From Chitinivibrionales bacterium (GTDB taxonomy: Bacteria > Fibrobacterota > Chitinivibrionia > Chitinivibrionales > WJKA01), in contig WJLZ01000126.1 of NCBI GenBank assembly GCA_014728215.1, forward strand, positions 1 to 64,000: a DNA stretch of 64,000 nucleotides, in the 5' to 3' direction. Made by a program: the position numbers and the translations under genes. Below the pieces are notes generated by a model. It was not told the DNA's origin. It did no database searches and was given only the letters and a program-made list of their open reading frames with translations. This document shows positions 51,870 to 64,000 of the stretch, in pieces; position 1 is the first letter of the stretch, and the number at the start of each line of letters is the position of its first letter.

Positions 51870-54110
51870 ATGAAAAATATCATAATTTTCTTTCGGCACA
51901 AAACCCCGGTACTGTTATCGATCCTGATCTTCGTGGTCAATACTTTTAGTGGAAGAGCATATCATGTCTCTGCGACGACGGGAAGCCAAAATGGAGACGG
52001 TTCATTGCCTGCACCTTTTCTCAGAATAATGGCGGCCGCCGATCGTGCTCAGCCGGGTGATACGATCATGGTACATCAGGGTATTTACCGTGGCCGGATA
52101 GCCCCTCCCCAGGGAGGAGAACCGGGGAGCCCAATTGTCTATATGGCCTTTCCCGGGGACACGGTATTTCTCAAAGGCTCAAATATCTGGGACCCATCAT
52201 GGGAAGCGCTGACCACCAAGGCAAATACATTTTACGCATCTCCCGACCCGGCACTCTTTACCGATGATTCTCAATATGACGGTGCCAATCCCTTTGAAAT
52301 AGAACTTATCGGATCACGATCGAGCCCTGCGGCAACGCTGGGTCAGGTATTTGTTGATGGTGAACGAATGACTGAAGTTGATGAAGAAGGGAAACTCTTT
52401 CAGGGCTCGTGGTGGTATGACAGCCTGAGCAAAAACATCTACCTCTGTTTTCCATCAGGAAAAAATCCCGACAGCAGCATGGTTGAGATAACGACACAGC
52501 GACGGGTCTTTGCGCCCCACCTCCGGGAGCTCGGTTATATTACTGTCAAAGGTTTTATCATGGAACATTGCGGTAATCAATATCCGGCAAGCTGGTACAT
52601 GCCCGGCTATCCGCCCCAGGCAGGATTACTCGGATGCCGTTCCGGAAACCACTGGGTTATCGAAAATAATGTTATCCGGCATGCAAAGGGGATCGGAATC
52701 GATTTCGGTGTTGAATCCGATGAAGACGATATCGAACGAAAGGACAACACTGTTAATGGAAGCGAAGTCGGGTATCATCTTATCCGTAACAATCTCATTA
52801 CCGACAACGGTACCAATGGTCTTATGGGCTGCTACACGCACAATGTTCGCATTGTAAACAATATCATCGAAGGCACGAATTACCTTCGGATAGACGGCAA
52901 CGAAAAAGGAGCCATTAAAACACATGGGTTCAACGATGGTATACTTGAAGGCAATCTGTTTCGCAATAATAAATGTCAGGCAATTTATCTGGATGCCGGC
53001 TTTACGGGTGCACGAGTAACAAAAAACATTGTCGTTTCAAATACCGCCTATGGTATGATGTTTGAACTACAGCGCCCCCACTCGACAGCGACACTCGTGG
53101 ATAACAATATCCTTGTCGGTAACGGCTATAACAGCATTTATCACCCTGATGCCTCAAGCGTGACTTATGCCCATAATCTGCTCGCTGCATCCTCCGGCTC
53201 CGACGGTTATGGGTCCTATGGTGAAGGTCATCTCATGCGCATTGTCACCGATCGGAGGAGTGCTCAGCTCTACGAAAACAGAATGTACAACACCCTCTTT
53301 TTCAGAAACTTCGGAGGCCATATGAGCTGGCCCTTTACCGATTGTGTGGATGATGAATTCGGGGAATGCTACAGTGACTACAATGTTTTCACCGGTTCGG
53401 CATTGAGCCGTTTGTTTTTTATCAATAAATACTGCGGTGGCCTCCGCCCATGGGGAGACGACTGGAATATGATGATCCAGATGGTGTGTGACGATATCGG
53501 AAACGCACTTGTCGGGACGGCACCTCAACACAAGGCCTCAAATTACCGGGGAGCCGCTCTCACGTTCTCCGAGTGGCAGGCATACTGGGCCAACAACGGA
53601 ACCGCAAATGATCAAAACAGCATCATAAGTTCTGAATGTAAAGCAGCCTACAATCTGCTATCCAATGAACTGACGATAACGATCGATTATGATCCATCGA
53701 GTTTAAGCTCACAACCGGTAGCCGGTCTGGATACCGATATCCTCGGCAATGCTATCCCGCAGGACGGGACCGCCGATCCGGGACCGATTCAGGGACTGAG
53801 CAAAGGAGTGCACACGTTCCAGCTCTGGCCCCCCCAGGATTTTCCGGATTTTCCACTTCCGGCGCCGTTACAAAACAGGGCAGTCAATCTTCCAAAACCA
53901 TCAAAGCCTCTCCCCGCTCCGTGGATCATGGCGCCCTTTGACGGGCGGATTCATATCCCCCGAGGCCGGAAGATAAAATCAATTGCCGTCTATTCGGCCG
54001 GGGGGCGGTTCATCTCCCGAATAACCGCAGAGGACTCCAAAGTAATAATGCTGGATAAGCATCTCGATGCAGCCCCGGGAATTCGTCTTGTAAAATTTGT
54101 GGCGGAATGA
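51870..54110 (+). CDS. Secreted right-handed beta-helix protein (polysaccharide-lyase-like)
   Basis: 746 residues. A signal peptide is followed by GSQNGDGSLPAPFLRIMAAADRA and GDTIMVHQGIYRG, the DUF1565-type start of parallel beta-helix proteins. Repeated NNxI turns follow (VIENNVIRHAKGIGI, IRNNLITDNGTNGL, VNNIIEGTNY, LVDNNILVGNGYN). Such proteins are often lyases or hydrolases of acidic polysaccharides. The final 50 residues (IKSIAVYSAGGRFISRI) look like a sorting tail, as in the protein ending at 22673. No catalytic residues can be named. Confidence 0.75.
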   Translation: MKNIIIFFRHKTPVLLSILIFVVNTFSGRAYHVSATTGSQNGDGSLPAPFLRIMAAADRAQPGDTIMVHQGIYRGRIAPPQGGEPGSPIVYMAFPGDTVFLKGSNIWDPSWEALTTKANTFYASPDPALFTDDSQYDGANPFEIELIGSRSSPAATLGQVFVDGERMTEVDEEGKLFQGSWWYDSLSKNIYLCFPSGKNPDSSMVEITTQRRVFAPHLRELGYITVKGFIMEHCGNQYPASWYMPGYPPQAGLLGCRSGNHWVIENNVIRHAKGIGIDFGVESDEDDIERKDNTVNGSEVGYHLIRNNLITDNGTNGLMGCYTHNVRIVNNIIEGTNYLRIDGNEKGAIKTHGFNDGILEGNLFRNNKCQAIYLDAGFTGARVTKNIVVSNTAYGMMFELQRPHSTATLVDNNILVGNGYNSIYHPDASSVTYAHNLLAASSGSDGYGSYGEGHLMRIVTDRRSAQLYENRMYNTLFFRNFGGHMSWPFTDCVDDEFGECYSDYNVFTGSALSRLFFINKYCGGLRPWGDDWNMMIQMVCDDIGNALVGTAPQHKASNYRGAALTFSEWQAYWANNGTANDQNSIISSECKAAYNLLSNELTITIDYDPSSLSSQPVAGLDTDILGNAIPQDGTADPGPIQGLSKGVHTFQLWPPQDFPDFPLPAPLQNRAVNLPKPSKPLPAPWIMAPFDGRIHIPRGRKIKSIAVYSAGGRFISRITAEDSKVIMLDKHLDAAPGIRLVKFVAE

Positions 54111-58007: not shown

Positions 58008-58757
58008 TCAGCGACTTTTCTTAAAGTCAGCAATCTTTAAACAGCCAAAACTGGGTTGATCCGCGATCTTTTGGATATATATTCCCTTCGCCGGCTTTAC
58101 TATTTCGATACTTCGTCCACCAATTGCCCGACCACGGACATCAAATACTCTTGTTTGAAAAATACTTTTTACATATAGCGCTGCTTCTTCTGTATAAACC
58201 CTTTTCGCATGCGTCAGATCATAATCGAGCGCGCCATGCGTGTACCGGGTAATGACTTCGCAGTTAACATCGCCTTCATAGTCGCAAAACCGGACTCCTT
58301 CAAGCCAGAGACTGCAGGATTCCATACTGACAATGTCGAACATAATAAGAGCAAGTATCCCGTCACCATCGGGCGCTGCAACCGAATCTATGCCGCCGGT
58401 CAGAGTATTGCTGATAGTCAACAAGTCTGTATGCCCGCTTTCCAAACCGCAGGAAAATAAAAACTCATCCGAGCTGTTTTTCCTGAAAATGTTCGAATAG
58501 CCGATTGTCTCCGCCTGGCCCATGGAAAAGAAAAGTACCGAGGGATCGAATCTCAGAAAAAACTCATAGGAATCAAGATTAACAACATCACCAGCCCTTA
58601 TTGCTATCCCTACCGATGTCCCCGCAAGCTGCGCAACCGAATCGATCTCCGGCGTCTGATAGTCAAGGTCGACATAAATCTTTGCATTTTCATTCGGGCC
58701 TGCTATTGCTGCGAAAACAATGACACAGATCAGCATGCACAACCGTAAATTGATCAT
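58008..58757 (-). CDS. Secreted cohesin-like domain protein with sorting-type tail
   Basis: 249 residues. Signal peptide (LRLCMLICVIVFAAIA), then GPNENAKIYVDLD and a cohesin-like module: NLDSYEFFLRFDPSVLFFS near residue 60. The C-terminal 60 residues (FQTRVFDVRGRAIGGRSIEIV...GIYIQKI) look like the sorting tail of other secreted proteins here. The start overlaps the preceding gene by 4 bases (ATGA). It may present the cohesin at the cell surface for dockerin partners encoded upstream. Confidence 0.65.
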   Translation of the reverse strand: MINLRLCMLICVIVFAAIAGPNENAKIYVDLDYQTPEIDSVAQLAGTSVGIAIRAGDVVNLDSYEFFLRFDPSVLFFSMGQAETIGYSNIFRKNSSDEFLFSCGLESGHTDLLTISNTLTGGIDSVAAPDGDGILALIMFDIVSMESCSLWLEGVRFCDYEGDVNCEVITRYTHGALDYDLTHAKRVYTEEAALYVKSIFQTRVFDVRGRAIGGRSIEIVKPAKGIYIQKIADQPSFGCLKIADFKKSR

Positions 58758-59257
58758 TCGTCCCCCTTGTGGATTACCAGATCCTGCATTGTAACGGGAT
58801 CTATTTTTTCTCTTTTGTTATTCAGCAACTCACCATTTTTCAGGGTAATCACCGTCTGCGCTGTTTCCTTCACAGTAAATATCAGCACTCCCAGTGCGGC
58901 ATTTTCCCGTATTGTTCCTGTAGCATGGGTACCGGTAAGCGTTGCGGAAATATTGACTGTCCCCTCCTCTTTCCTGATCACCGGTATGATCTTTCCGTTC
59001 CCGGCACTCAGGACATTACGGATTCCCGCAAAAGGATCCTCAACAGCCGTCTGCTTGAGTTCCAGAATCTCCGGATCATACACAATATCGATAGAATAGG
59101 TATCGAGATTGGTGACATCCTTGATCATGACAAGTATTTTGATCTGATCACCAGCGGAGGAATTCTCAGTATCGGTCTGCAGCGAAATTATCGGCGCAGT
59201 TTCTGCAGCAAAAAGCATGCACGCCGTCATTACCAGGCTTACGGTAAAGTGTTTCAT
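58754..59257 (-). CDS. Small secreted cohesin-like domain protein
   Basis: 167 residues from the ATG at 59257 (GGAG upstream; 59284 is a longer alternative). Signal peptide, then one cohesin-like module: AGDQIKILVMIKDVTNLDTY, SIDIVYDPEILELK, and GVLIFTVKETAQTVITL. It lacks any other domain, unlike its neighbours. Coupled by ATGA to the 58008 gene. It shares the NLDTYS motif with both adjacent proteins. Confidence 0.7.
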   Translation of the reverse strand: MKHFTVSLVMTACMLFAAETAPIISLQTDTENSSAGDQIKILVMIKDVTNLDTYSIDIVYDPEILELKQTAVEDPFAGIRNVLSAGNGKIIPVIRKEEGTVNISATLTGTHATGTIRENAALGVLIFTVKETAQTVITLKNGELLNNKREKIDPVTMQDLVIHKGDE

Positions 59258-59314
59258 AAAATTCTCCACATTTTTAAGTTTCAATACTTTTTCAGGTTCA
59301 ACAGGTCAACAGGT

Positions 59315-59333
59315 CATGGGCTGGAAGCCCATG
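59315..59333. repeat. REP-like hairpin
   Basis: CATGGGCT-GGA-AGCCCATG forms an 8-bp stem. Just before it, CAACAGGT is repeated in tandem. It lies between two cohesin-cluster genes and may act as an attenuator or dispersed repeat. Confidence 0.65.
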
Positions 59334-59420
59334 CCACACTGGTAAATTTTAAATTCCAAAACTCGAATCACTAAAATCCGGGTCCAGCAACCAGCAAACA
59401 ACATCCATCATCTCTTTCCT

Positions 59421-62177
59421 TTACTTTTCCTTATGCCAACTATCACCAAAAATTGAAAGGTCCTGAACATCGATAATCTGATTACCGGATCCGGCATCGG
59501 CATTAAGGTTCAGGTTGGTAATCCATTCCCAATCGGTATCAGTTTGTTCAAGGTGCCAGGTATCGCCGAATATCGACAGATCCTCAACCCTGACCGTGCC
59601 ATCGTGATTGAAATCCGCTCTGAGCCATCCCTGTGCAGTGTACACCTGCCCGTTTCCATCGGAAAGTGCGATCGACAAGAAATCATTCTCATCGCCGTAT
59701 TTTTTGCCGATCGCCGCTCCGCCGCCGGCGCTCAGTGGTTGCCCTGCAGAATACATCACCCCCATTTCCTGATAGGTGCCGTCATTGCGGTTCCTGAAAT
59801 AGAGAACATCACCGGCGGCATTGCCCACCAAAAGATCATTTGCACCGTCTCCACTGAGATCCATCATGCACGGAGCGGCATCGAAACCCGCAACAATATT
59901 TCCCGATGACGTTGCCAGATTTGTTGCAGTTGCCCACGATGGTGCATTCCAGTCAAAGGGCGTTTGCGCATAGGCAACCATCACCGATCCATCATCCAGA
60001 CCCATCACCAGATCCGGATATTCATCGCTGTTCTCCAGGCTCAGATCAAAGCCGGTGATATTTCCTGTGGAGGTATACAGTACCGTGCCGTTATCGTAAA
60101 CCAGTTCATTGTCGTACGAAATGTTCTTAAACAGCGTTATAGTATTATTGTTATTCGAAACCAGGAGATCGAATTTCCCGTCGGCATTCCAGTCAACGAC
60201 TCTCAGACACACGATTCCTCCGCTGAGAACAAGATCGGATCCGGTTCCATTACGGGGATCGGTTGCCGATACGTAATCGGTTCCGGAATTTGCATAATAG
60301 TCAAAGGTACCATTTCCGCGACCGATCAGCAGATCCATGTCACCGTCATTGTCCATGTCTTCCATGGCTGCGCTGTTGTAACTTCCGGTCTGTATCGGCG
60401 TGCCGCCCGACGAAACGGCCTTAGTGGTATCGAACACAAAGGGCACAACCGGCCGTTGACTGACCGATACAGCAGTGGTAATGCCGGACTGCACGAGTAC
60501 CGGTTTGTATTCCGGACGGAACCCTTGTTCGACAACACAGAGCAGATGATTTCCCGGGATCACGCTGTCGATAGTGCCGGGACCATCGAGTTTCTTACTC
60601 CCATTCATGCCGCTCGATGCAAACAGAAAGACATCGGCATTTCCTCCGGTATTCGGCAACTCAACCGTAATATCTCCTCCCGGCTCGAACACCGCGGTTA
60701 TTGAATATGACTGGTCCATGATAATCGTTTGGGACGGATTTTTATAACCATTAATCGGGCTATTCTGCCATTCCTTGAAATACCATCCGGCAGATCCGGG
60801 TGCTGCAGCAAGCAGTACCGACTCGTTATGGGCATAGGACGTTTTATCCGGATTTTTGGTTACAGTACCGGCGCCGGACACATTGATTGTCAAGCTGTAG
60901 TTATCAAGCGTAAAGCCGGCTGATATAGTGTGGTTCGCGGTTACATTGGTGAAGCTGTAAATATAGCTGCTCGCTTGGGAAGCAGCACCCACTGCCACAT
61001 TATCTACGAGGAGCTGATCGATTACATAGCCGTTGGCATCGTCCGCAGTGACGGTAAACAACTGATCAATGCCATAGGTCACATTAACCGTGCCGCTCGG
61101 AGTGATGCTTCCGTTTGAGCCCGCACTTGCGATGATCGTATGGGTCCGGAGAGCAAAGCTCGCCGAGATCGTCTGGTTGGCGGTTACATTGGTAAACGCG
61201 TGAACATAGCTGCTCACTCCCGCTGCCGCCGTAACCGGTGATCCATCAACAAGCAACTGATCGATCACATAGCCGTTCGCATCGTCGGCAGTGACGGTAA
61301 ACGACTGGTCATTGCCATAGGTCACATTAACCGTGCCATTCGGAGTAATGCTCCCGTTTGGGTCTGCACTTGCCGTAATCGTATGGGTCCGGAGAACAAA
61401 GCTGGCAGAGATCGCCTGGTTGGCGGTCACATTCGTAAACGCGTGAACATAGCTGCTCACTCCCGCTGCCGCGGCAATTGGTAATCCATCAACAAGCAAC
61501 TGATCGATCACATAGCCGTTGGCATCGTCCGCAGTGACGGTAAACGACTGATCAATGCCATAGGTCACATTGACCGTGCCGTTCGGGGATATGCTCCCTT
61601 TTGTACCAGCACTTGCGTTAATTGTAAATGTTGGAGTAAAAGTATAGGAACCGCTAAAAAGATTACCCGATGCGACCAGGTCCCTCTCGCCATCCGAATC
61701 GACAAAATCTCCCAATGCAGAGCGGATTGCCGTACTGTTCAAAGGGCCGAGAAGCGAACGGAACTGTATCGCAGCAAGTAACCCGGAACCGTCAGGCGCC
61801 TGCAGGGTATCATCACCAATCAACGTCAACCAGCCTTCCACCGTATCAGGTGAGCCGTCAAGCGTATCCGGTGCGGACTGCCCGATTGTGGAACCGCCGT
61901 TGAGCGTGAGGATATTATTCGTGCCGGCATAGCTCCATGACGCACTGATAAACTCCAGGCTGTCGGTATTGTATGTCATCCGGAAACTGTAGGTATCCAG
62001 ATTCTTGACTGCACCGGCGGTAACGAACACCCAGAACGTTCCGGCATCGGATGAGAGTGTATTCTGGATTCCGGCCGTTGATGGATCCATGTCAATGCTG
62101 ATTGTCGCATCCTGGTTGGGTCCGGCAACCGCTGCTATCCAAAGCAGTGCGGTAATGAGGCAGGCGTTCTTCACCAT
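59421..62177 (-). CDS. Large secreted cohesin/repeat/VCBS/dockerin-like protein
   Basis: 918 residues from the ATG at 62177 (AGGAGG seven bases upstream; the frame is open from 62225). Order: signal peptide; cohesin-like module with NLDTYSFRMTYNTDSLEF; three 81-residue tandem repeats; a bacterial-repeat-like stretch (WYFKEWQNSPINGY); four FG-GAP/VCBS-type calcium-loop repeats (DMDNDGDMDLLIG, DWNADGKFDLLVS, NSDEYPDLVMG, DLSGDGANDLLVG). It ends with two dockerin-like loops (DFNHDGTVRVEDLSIFGDTW and IIDVQDLSIFGDSWH). A scaffold-like surface protein with both partner types in one chain is the likely reading. Confidence 0.75.
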   Translation of the reverse strand: MVKNACLITALLWIAAVAGPNQDATISIDMDPSTAGIQNTLSSDAGTFWVFVTAGAVKNLDTYSFRMTYNTDSLEFISASWSYAGTNNILTLNGGSTIGQSAPDTLDGSPDTVEGWLTLIGDDTLQAPDGSGLLAAIQFRSLLGPLNSTAIRSALGDFVDSDGERDLVASGNLFSGSYTFTPTFTINASAGTKGSISPNGTVNVTYGIDQSFTVTADDANGYVIDQLLVDGLPIAAAAGVSSYVHAFTNVTANQAISASFVLRTHTITASADPNGSITPNGTVNVTYGNDQSFTVTADDANGYVIDQLLVDGSPVTAAAGVSSYVHAFTNVTANQTISASFALRTHTIIASAGSNGSITPSGTVNVTYGIDQLFTVTADDANGYVIDQLLVDNVAVGAASQASSYIYSFTNVTANHTISAGFTLDNYSLTINVSGAGTVTKNPDKTSYAHNESVLLAAAPGSAGWYFKEWQNSPINGYKNPSQTIIMDQSYSITAVFEPGGDITVELPNTGGNADVFLFASSGMNGSKKLDGPGTIDSVIPGNHLLCVVEQGFRPEYKPVLVQSGITTAVSVSQRPVVPFVFDTTKAVSSGGTPIQTGSYNSAAMEDMDNDGDMDLLIGRGNGTFDYYANSGTDYVSATDPRNGTGSDLVLSGGIVCLRVVDWNADGKFDLLVSNNNNTITLFKNISYDNELVYDNGTVLYTSTGNITGFDLSLENSDEYPDLVMGLDDGSVMVAYAQTPFDWNAPSWATATNLATSSGNIVAGFDAAPCMMDLSGDGANDLLVGNAAGDVLYFRNRNDGTYQEMGVMYSAGQPLSAGGGAAIGKKYGDENDFLSIALSDGNGQVYTAQGWLRADFNHDGTVRVEDLSIFGDTWHLEQTDTDWEWITNLNLNADAGSGNQIIDVQDLSIFGDSWHKEK
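60897..61625 (-). repeat. Three 243-bp in-frame tandem repeats
   Basis: Residues 201-443 of the longest frame of the cohesin/dockerin gene are three 81-residue units, each with GTVNVTYGxDQ and FTVTADDANGYVIDQLLVD. DNA identity between copies is high by eye. The same word GYVIDQLLVD occurs in all three. Confidence 0.85.
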
Positions 62178-62236
62178 ACGAATTCCTCCTTTAGTATCAA
62201 ATTTTCCTTTTTTGAATAATTCCAATATATATATGG

Positions 62237-64000
62237 CTATTTTTCATTTCCATAACAATCTCCAAAAATATGCAAATCGGCTACATCTATACATTGTATC
62301 CCTGAACTTCCGGGTACCAGATCTAAATTTAATTCCCATACCCATCCGGCATCATCCTCATCAGATCCCCATGCATCGCCAAAGGCATTCAAATCATTGA
62401 CATCCACGCATTGAGAACCATCGCTAACAAAATCACCGCATAAGACACCGTCTGTTTTTACCACGATCCCATTGGTATCGGCAACAAGCAATGAAATGAA
62501 CTGCCCCGAAGCATTATATGATCCGGCAAGTGTGCCCTTTCCCGCTGCCCTTATGGGCATTCCCGCCGACATTACCACGCCCCGGTACATGTACGTACCC
62601 GCAGAGGTCTGCTCATACCAGACAAGGGTATCGGAGGCCGAGGTGATACAAAGATCGGAATATTCATCACCGGAGAGCTCCACTATCAGGGGCGCTGCGC
62701 TGTCGCCAGCCTGGATCGCCAAACCATCAAAGGTCTGTACTGCCACGGGAGTATCAAAACCGTTTCCGTTATTGCCTATCATCTTTATCTCACCGGTCGC
62801 GTAGCCGCAGATAAAATCAGGATCATCATCGTTATCATTATCGAAACAATCAAATCCAGTCAGATCATCCCCGCAGTTCACAAGGATCTGCCCACTTCCA
62901 AAGGTCATGCTTCCCTGGTTATAGTAAATCGTGACATCGCCATTTGAAACACCGGCAAGAATATCCGGTTTGTTATCATCGTTCCAGTCTGCGATACGGA
63001 TGCACTGCAGGTCGGAAGTTCCCAGATCGATATCGGAGGAGAAGATAAGGTCATTCCCATTATTTTCGTAAAAATGGATTAACCCCGAAGTAACGCCCGC
63101 CAGCAAGTCCACATCACCGTCACGGTCGATATCATCCCGAACAACCGATGCATACTCATTCAGATCGATTATTGACCCGTTGGATGTGAGGGTATCCTTT
63201 TCTCCAAAGGTTATCCGGACCGCATCATGCATGGTTACGGTAACCGTGGTATCCTGTCTCTCAAGCAGGAGGGGTATATATTCGGTTCTTTTACCGGGAT
63301 CCCGAAGAACGAGCAGGTGATTACCCGGGTTTACATCAGTAATAACACCGCTTCCATCGAGCATCTTATCGCCCTGCCAGGCACTCGTTCCATAAAGGAA
63401 AGCTCTCCCATTCTGCGAAATACCATTTACCGTAATATCGGAGAGCGACTGCGATCGTTCACTTTCCGCCGGTCCGGTATCGGTAGAAAGATGGGCCGGA
63501 AAATCGGCGGTATTGAGTGCGATCATTACCCGGTCGACCTGCCAGCCGTCCTCACGCCTCCGGATCTGAACCGTATGCGTTCCAGCATCGAGATATCCCA
63601 GAGGATTCGTTCCGTGAAACCAGTTCCAAGAAGAAACGATTTGCCAGAAATCACCGGCACAGGCCATGATACCATCAACCCCGTGTTTGGCCGAATTACT
63701 TCCACCGTCGGGAGCCCGGTATCTGACCGCAATATGATAGGTCCCGGGAGTAGAAATATGAACATCCCAGGCAAGCTCGCAATTGGCATCCCAGGTATCA
63801 TCCCCACCGCCGGTTCCATCAGGTACCTCCATGTATCCATCGCCCATATAATCGGCAACCGCGGTCGCTTCAATCCAGTTCGTGACATCGTATCGTTGGT
63901 CAACCCGGTGTGCATGCTCGGCTTCCATGACACAGGTTCCATGCTGTTCTAAAAACAGACCGGCCAGGACCTCTCCAACAGTGATATAGACCGGATCCGA
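62237..64000 (-). CDS. Secreted CBM/VCBS/dockerin-like protein, 5' end outside window
   Basis: The frame stays open from the stop at 62237 through 63928 to the right edge with no stop (upstream codons read VYITVGEVLAGLFLEQHGTC). So the ATG at 63928 is internal and the gene is partial, at least 587 codons. VMEAEHAHRV and the following beta domain (WELAW... TYHIAVRYRAPDGG) resemble the GH115 C-terminal/CBM-like fold. Then come four VCBS-type repeats (DIDRDGDVDLLAG, DWNDDNKPDILAG) and two dockerin-like loops containing Cys (QCVDVNDL, QCIDVADL). The catalytic part may lie beyond the window. Confidence 0.75.
   Translation of the reverse strand, partial: SDPVYITVGEVLAGLFLEQHGTCVMEAEHAHRVDQRYDVTNWIEATAVADYMGDGYMEVPDGTGGGDDTWDANCELAWDVHISTPGTYHIAVRYRAPDGGSNSAKHGVDGIMACAGDFWQIVSSWNWFHGTNPLGYLDAGTHTVQIRRREDGWQVDRVMIALNTADFPAHLSTDTGPAESERSQSLSDITVNGISQNGRAFLYGTSAWQGDKMLDGSGVITDVNPGNHLLVLRDPGKRTEYIPLLLERQDTTVTVTMHDAVRITFGEKDTLTSNGSIIDLNEYASVVRDDIDRDGDVDLLAGVTSGLIHFYENNGNDLIFSSDIDLGTSDLQCIRIADWNDDNKPDILAGVSNGDVTIYYNQGSMTFGSGQILVNCGDDLTGFDCFDNDNDDDPDFICGYATGEIKMIGNNGNGFDTPVAVQTFDGLAIQAGDSAAPLIVELSGDEYSDLCITSASDTLVWYEQTSAGTYMYRGVVMSAGMPIRAAGKGTLAGSYNASGQFISLLVADTNGIVVKTDGVLCGDFVSDGSQCVDVNDLNAFGDAWGSDEDDAGWVWELNLDLVPGSSGIQCIDVADLHIFGDCYGNEK

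Follow-up and report, generated by a model that had tools for sequence, protein, structure and literature searches.

A probable T9SS-linked cohesin-dockerin surface-display cluster in a Chitinivibrionales bacterium

Introduction

In the Cloacimonadota (Ca. Stygibacter), a cohesin scaffoldin with a T9SS C-terminal domain has been proposed to act with enzymes that carry dockerins (PMC8542988). The scaffoldin is one protein of 3,755 aa with tandem cohesins and CBMs, and the dockerins lie at the C-termini of peptidases and hydrolases; that proposal, like ours, was drawn from genomes alone (PMC8542988). An anchor-adaptor-cargo assembly, the planctosome, has been proposed for the Planctomycetes (Nemodlikiaceae), with a lamin-tail domain as the anchor and metallopeptidases, and it was not described as T9SS-linked (PMC6461901). 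The clostridial and Acetivibrio cellulosomes (type II) combine multi-cohesin scaffoldins, cellulose-binding modules and cellulases, and are anchored to Gram-positive surfaces.

A survey of Fibrobacteres genomes, including that of the chitin degrader C. alkaliphilus, reported no clostridial-like cohesins or dockerins (PMC4704652). Fibrobacter succinogenes, which adheres to and degrades cellulose, belongs to the same phylum as our bacterium, and export of its enzymes through the T9SS has been inferred (PMC6851124). Unlike the present system, it was reported to be without cohesins and dockerins (PMC4704652, PMC6851124). In a paper on a cellulolytic Chitinispirillaceae isolate, the two endospore-forming strains are the only ones to which cellulosomes were assigned (PMC11700989). 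No description of the present system was found in the open-licence literature, to which our search was confined. Here we describe a cluster of genes that, judged from its sequences, is likely to encode a T9SS-linked cohesin-dockerin surface-display system with a tailed cohesin anchor, an adaptor and giant cargo.

Results

The window, that is, the whole stretch of DNA analysed, comprises bases 1-64000 of a contig of 75,472 bp (C126). In a search with proteins, the closest named relatives were metagenome-derived Chitinivibrionales bacteria (Fibrobacterota), which places the organism in or close to this order. A first-pass annotation of the window had described a compact cluster of four consecutive minus-strand genes at 58008-64000. 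The four genes are there (Table 1), but the cluster runs on beyond 64000, to about 74531 (window coordinate), and contains six genes over about 16 kb, including two further dockerin genes for proteins of 618 and 1403 aa. In the order of transcription, the genes encode the 1403-aa, 618-aa and ~2000-aa proteins, the 934-aa adaptor, the 176-aa cohesin and the 249-aa tailed cohesin. The gap between the genes of the ~2000-aa and 934-aa proteins is 11 bp, that upstream of the 176-aa gene is about 136 bp, and the two small cohesin genes overlap by 4 bp. Because the gaps are mostly short or replaced by overlaps, the cluster is likely an operon. Promoter and terminator scans gave counts close to the shuffled expectation, tRNA and Rfam searches gave no match, and a plasmid search returned generic FG-GAP and repeat matches only.

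Table 1. Features of the cohesin-dockerin cluster inside the window
Feature	Position	Strand	Basis
249-aa anchor cohesin: signal peptide, one cohesin, C-terminal sorting-type tail	58008..58757	-	ORF; AlphaFold core and Foldseek
Cohesin module of the 249-aa protein	58278..58691	-	Local iterated cohesin HMM, residues 23-160, E 2e-45
Probable T9SS type A sorting tail (VFDVRGRAIG...GIYIQKI) of the 249-aa protein	58011..58157	-	Own-genome tail HMM, E 0.074
176-aa tail-less cohesin	58754..59284	-	Pfam Cohesin, 3.1e-9
Cohesin module of the 176-aa protein	58790..59179	-	Pfam cohesin model, 8.1e-9 whole-genome
934-aa adaptor: cohesin, InlB-type repeats, propeller module, dockerin	59421..62225	-	ORF, Pfam; layout matches G001, G002
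Adaptor cohesin module	61698..62114	-	Homology to 249-aa cohesin, 7.8e-15
Adaptor divergent InlB B-type repeats	60681..61616	-	Pfam PF18998, 1.7e-18, 4 stretches
Adaptor shared C-terminal module: beta-sandwich and FG-GAP propeller	59637..60665	-	Alignment, ~35% identity
Adaptor dockerin, canonical 12-residue first loop	59424..59624	-	Family profile, E 1.7e-28 (own-genome search)
~2000-aa cargo protein, C-terminal 587 aa: CBM35-like, propeller module, dockerin	62237..64000	-	Gene runs to ~68310 (contig coordinate)
Cargo CBM35 / GH115_C-like carbohydrate-binding domain	63518..63820	-	CBM_35, 2.1e-5; GH115_C, 34.3 bits
Shared beta-sandwich and FG-GAP propeller module of the ~2000-aa cargo	62458..63436	-	Pfam, alignment
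Cysteine-bearing dockerin of the ~2000-aa cargo, first loop longer by 2 residues	62240..62455	-	Family profile, E 1.5e-28; sister-species alignment

Three of the cluster proteins carry cohesins, as the first-pass annotation had claimed, one recognised by Pfam, the other two through homology or their fold. Pfam Cohesin (PF00963) is matched above the cut-off by the 176-aa protein, the single match of this model in the whole genome; the best PDB match of this protein is a cohesin dyad of an Acetivibrio adaptor scaffoldin (2.5e-8). The 249-aa protein matched no Pfam family, and the PDB entry closest to it by sequence is a cohesin (E 0.009). When its core was modelled with AlphaFold (pLDDT of about 60-84 for most of residues 51-160) and the model compared with the PDB by Foldseek, the best 50 listed matches were all cohesins, with type II first and a best value of 5.8e-7. 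The N-terminus of the 934-aa protein is homologous to the 249-aa cohesin and is itself below the Pfam cohesin cut-off. A profile made from eight cohesins had its best PDB match at 1.9e-10, and nearly all of its matches were cohesins.

C-terminal dockerins were found in two proteins of the window, again in agreement with the earlier claim, and in the two proteins beyond 64000. Single dockerin sequences remained below the NCBIfam and Pfam cut-offs (that of the adaptor reached 3.4e-4 with NCBIfam dockerin_GC) and have an insertion in the second loop, and thus we regard them as divergent dockerins. Pooled into a family profile, 23 sequences gave PDB dockerin matches of 3e-7 and 7e-6; the values for calmodulin and myosin light chains were only near 1. 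The AlphaFold model was poor (pLDDT 55), with two loop-helix elements at the expected positions, and a fold search with it was uninformative. Assignment of the modules to unrelated Ig-like and EF-hand families had been named beforehand as a result that would speak against the cluster. The profile and fold searches run on this point rank cohesins and dockerins first, and a generic Ig or EF-hand identity is rejected by Foldseek for the cohesins and by the 23-sequence profile for the dockerins.

Of 24 dockerins, 16 have a canonical first calcium loop. The loop is two residues longer in the remaining eight, all of which come from the family of G000, G001 and G002, the family that also has the adaptor. 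Within this family the loop is canonical in all three adaptors and long in 8 of 10 cargo proteins. Small as these numbers are, they suggest two binding specificities; tentatively, the canonical-loop dockerins may bind the tailed cohesins and the long-loop dockerins the adaptor. The cysteines noticed earlier in the dockerin loops (SQCVDV, IQCIDV) are conserved in the sister species. The dockerin at 62240-62461 has four cysteines, two of them at matching positions of both loops and conserved in the sister species, and it is possibly disulfide-bridged.

The genome encodes SprA (99 bits) and contains 53 matches to sorting tails, and SprA was found in 118 of 121 relatives. The single sorting tail reported for the window copy is weak there, with E values of 0.07-0.09 against a tail HMM from the same genome, yet it scored above all shuffles, and the tail, a feature of the larger cohesins, is clear in several relatives. 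The orthologue in the sister species gave E 0.0026 with the same HMM, TIGR04183 was above the cut-off on the tailed cohesins of two relatives, and the own-genome profile identified seven tailed cohesins at E<0.01. We consider the C-terminus of the 249-aa protein to be a probable T9SS type A sorting tail. For the 176-aa protein, anchoring as a lipoprotein was considered and is not favoured; the cysteine near its signal peptide is kept in the G001 copy and absent from those of G002 and G039. Elsewhere in the window (51870-54110), a right-handed beta-helix protein of 746 aa has a C-terminus that weakly matches the T9SS tail profile (E 0.01).

By the own-genome tail profile, a T9SS-type sorting tail was found on 0 of 24 dockerin proteins, and the dockerin ends within 6 residues of the C-terminus in all 24, where a sorting tail would sit. 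It might be supposed that the dockerin stands in for the tail, so that tail-less cargo would bind the tailed cohesin in the periplasm and be exported and anchored by it. If this were true, the cohesin-dockerin pair would be a carrier module of type IX secretion, but we consider the idea unlikely. The genome also has three secretin matches, and the T2SS is a possible export route of the dockerin proteins.

The four large proteins of the cluster all share a C-terminal module of 400 residues, which consists of a beta-sandwich, an FG-GAP propeller and the dockerin, with about 35% identity among them in the alignment. What had been read as VCBS repeats belongs to Pfam FG-GAP_3. The adaptor was correctly recognised in the window as one protein with both a cohesin and a dockerin, as chaining would require; it is conserved in three genomes, its layout (cohesin, InlB repeats, propeller, dockerin) is identical in G001 and G002, and it has a tandem repeat with a period of 243 bp over 61014-61626. 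Ahead of the propeller and dockerin, the ~2000-aa protein has SGNH-like, Ig, PKD, DUF5107 and CBM35-like domains, the 1403-aa protein has two SGNH hydrolase domains, a GH115_C-like domain and PKD, and the 618-aa protein has cadherin/Ig-like domains. The carbohydrate-binding-like domain of the earlier annotation was recovered in the ~2000-aa protein, where CBM_35 falls just below its cut-off and GH115_C exceeds its own (24.1 bits) in the full-length protein. The 618-aa gene has a TAG in the second half of its dockerin, with the rest in frame after it (L002 11305-11523; C126:68304-68522), which may represent a decayed gene, an assembly error or a truncation.

The SGNH hydrolase, CBM35/GH115_C and DUF5107 domains of the cargo, as well as a dockerin protein that resembles esterases and is encoded at another site of the genome (L054), would fit a true degradative complex of the small cellulosome or planctosome type, directed at one polymer, in which cargo esterases and binding modules strip the acyl groups from a polysaccharide. 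We think this unlikely. The dockerin proteins scanned contained no match to a glycoside hydrolase catalytic domain, but only to GH115_C, a C-terminal domain. A catalytic motif is missing from two of the cluster's three SGNH domains, namely the second of the 1403-aa protein (no block V histidine) and that of the ~2000-aa protein (no block III motif). The first domain of the 1403-aa protein has its catalytic motifs intact. The cargo in relatives is varied, with subtilases, VWA, IgGFc-binding, Calx-beta and nidogen-like domains, and therefore the attachment module is not specific to a single substrate. Such cargo suggests that the system serves the general display of adhesins and hydrolases, rather than the breakdown of cellulose.

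Among 121 related genomes, the propeller-dockerin module (400 residues, high score) occurred in 10. Cohesins of the family were present in all 10, compared to 2 of the 111 others (Fisher 5e-13, without correction for kinship). Besides the present genome, seven have the cohesin and propeller-dockerin genes side by side (G001, G009, G021 with two loci, G026, G027, G039 and G092), and so does G002, whose contig stops after the tail-less cohesin. A linked and conserved system of cohesins and dockerins is now known from the Chitinivibrionales and from one genome of another Fibrobacterota family. For nine linked pairs, cohesin distances correlated with dockerin distances (Mantel r=0.87, p=5e-5). Block inheritance of linked genes would also produce such a correlation, so it supports binding rather than proves it. 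In G021, one of the paralogous loci resembles G009 and the other G026, two different genera, on the cohesin and dockerin sides alike, which indicates that the pairing reflects more than species identity.

Cohesin modules are known outside cellulosomes, and it is conceivable that the modules described here are homologues that do not pair: the cohesins would be generic beta-sandwich surface domains, and the dockerin would cap or stabilise the propeller with calcium. The dockerin nearly always follows the same FG-GAP propeller, and its failure to pass the curated cut-offs as a single sequence would agree with this. However, the co-occurrence and adjacency of cohesin and dockerin are near-perfect, and the cohesin distances track the dockerin more closely than the propeller (0.87 vs 0.69). 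We therefore find non-pairing improbable and retain the display system as the preferred reading.

Two further loci of the same genome have similar elements. The esterase-like protein at L054 (5319-8483, contig C196) is unlinked and has the same propeller-dockerin C-terminus. At L055 (1546-8432, contig C167), a divergent cohesin-like protein adjoins a protein of 2004 aa that has a dockerin-like loop in its interior and an FlgD-Ig domain at its C-terminus.

Discussion

We suggest that the 249-aa cohesin would be exported and retained at the outer surface by its C-terminal T9SS-type tail, and that the dockerin of the 934-aa adaptor would dock onto it. The cohesin of the adaptor could then take up the dockerin of a giant cargo protein with SGNH-hydrolase-like, CBM35-like and Ig/PKD domains. 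The tail-less 176-aa cohesin may be a free partner or a periplasmic holder. The sequences themselves show the identities of the domains, the gene order, the conservation of the linked pair and the T9SS genes; we infer from them that the modules bind one another, that docking proceeds in this order and that the assembly lies at the surface.

As in Stygibacter, a cohesin protein would be attached to the cell's own surface by a C-terminal domain (PMC8542988). The present system differs in that single cohesins are placed on small separate proteins, an adaptor is present, and the dockerins are fused to a common FG-GAP propeller module (PMC8542988). It shares with the planctosome a cohesin anchor, an adaptor with dockerin and cohesin, and secreted cargo that would dock on the adaptor (PMC6461901). 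The clostridial and Acetivibrio cellulosomes provide the nearest solved structures for both module types and have the hierarchical adaptor logic in common with our system, but none of their other characteristic components listed above was found here. This genome has single cohesins only, and a scaffoldin with several cohesins and a cellulose-binding module was not found in it. A canonical cellulosome is rejected, with no multi-cohesin scaffoldin found in this genome and no glycoside hydrolase catalytic domain in the dockerin proteins scanned, and the first-pass annotation's description of the cluster as cellulosome-like is not well supported for the same reason. Its other suggestion, a surface-display system unlike those of clostridia, finds support in the T9SS-type tails and in the T9SS that the genome encodes. 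The best reading is a likeness to a minimal adaptor-scaffoldin system that is not a cellulosome.

What is best called new is a combination of cohesins that occur singly, an adaptor, and a propeller module fused to the dockerin, in a phylum other than that of the earlier T9SS-linked proposal. The system offers simple pairs of one cohesin and one dockerin from diderm bacteria, and it raises the question of how tail-less giant proteins reach the surface in a T9SS bacterium.

In four relatives, a conserved trio of genes follows the tailed cohesin (L035 8608-17315, L119 9655-18070, L121 628-9042 and L128 627-8799). The trio encodes proteins of about 1500, 800 and 230 aa, the second of which ends in a T9SS-like tail, and the copies scanned (L035, L119) matched no Pfam family above the cut-off. 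Other cohesin-like proteins, at L041 9352-9987 and L045 9191-9778 within the same order, have PEP-CTERM-like tails, which point to a different sorting system.
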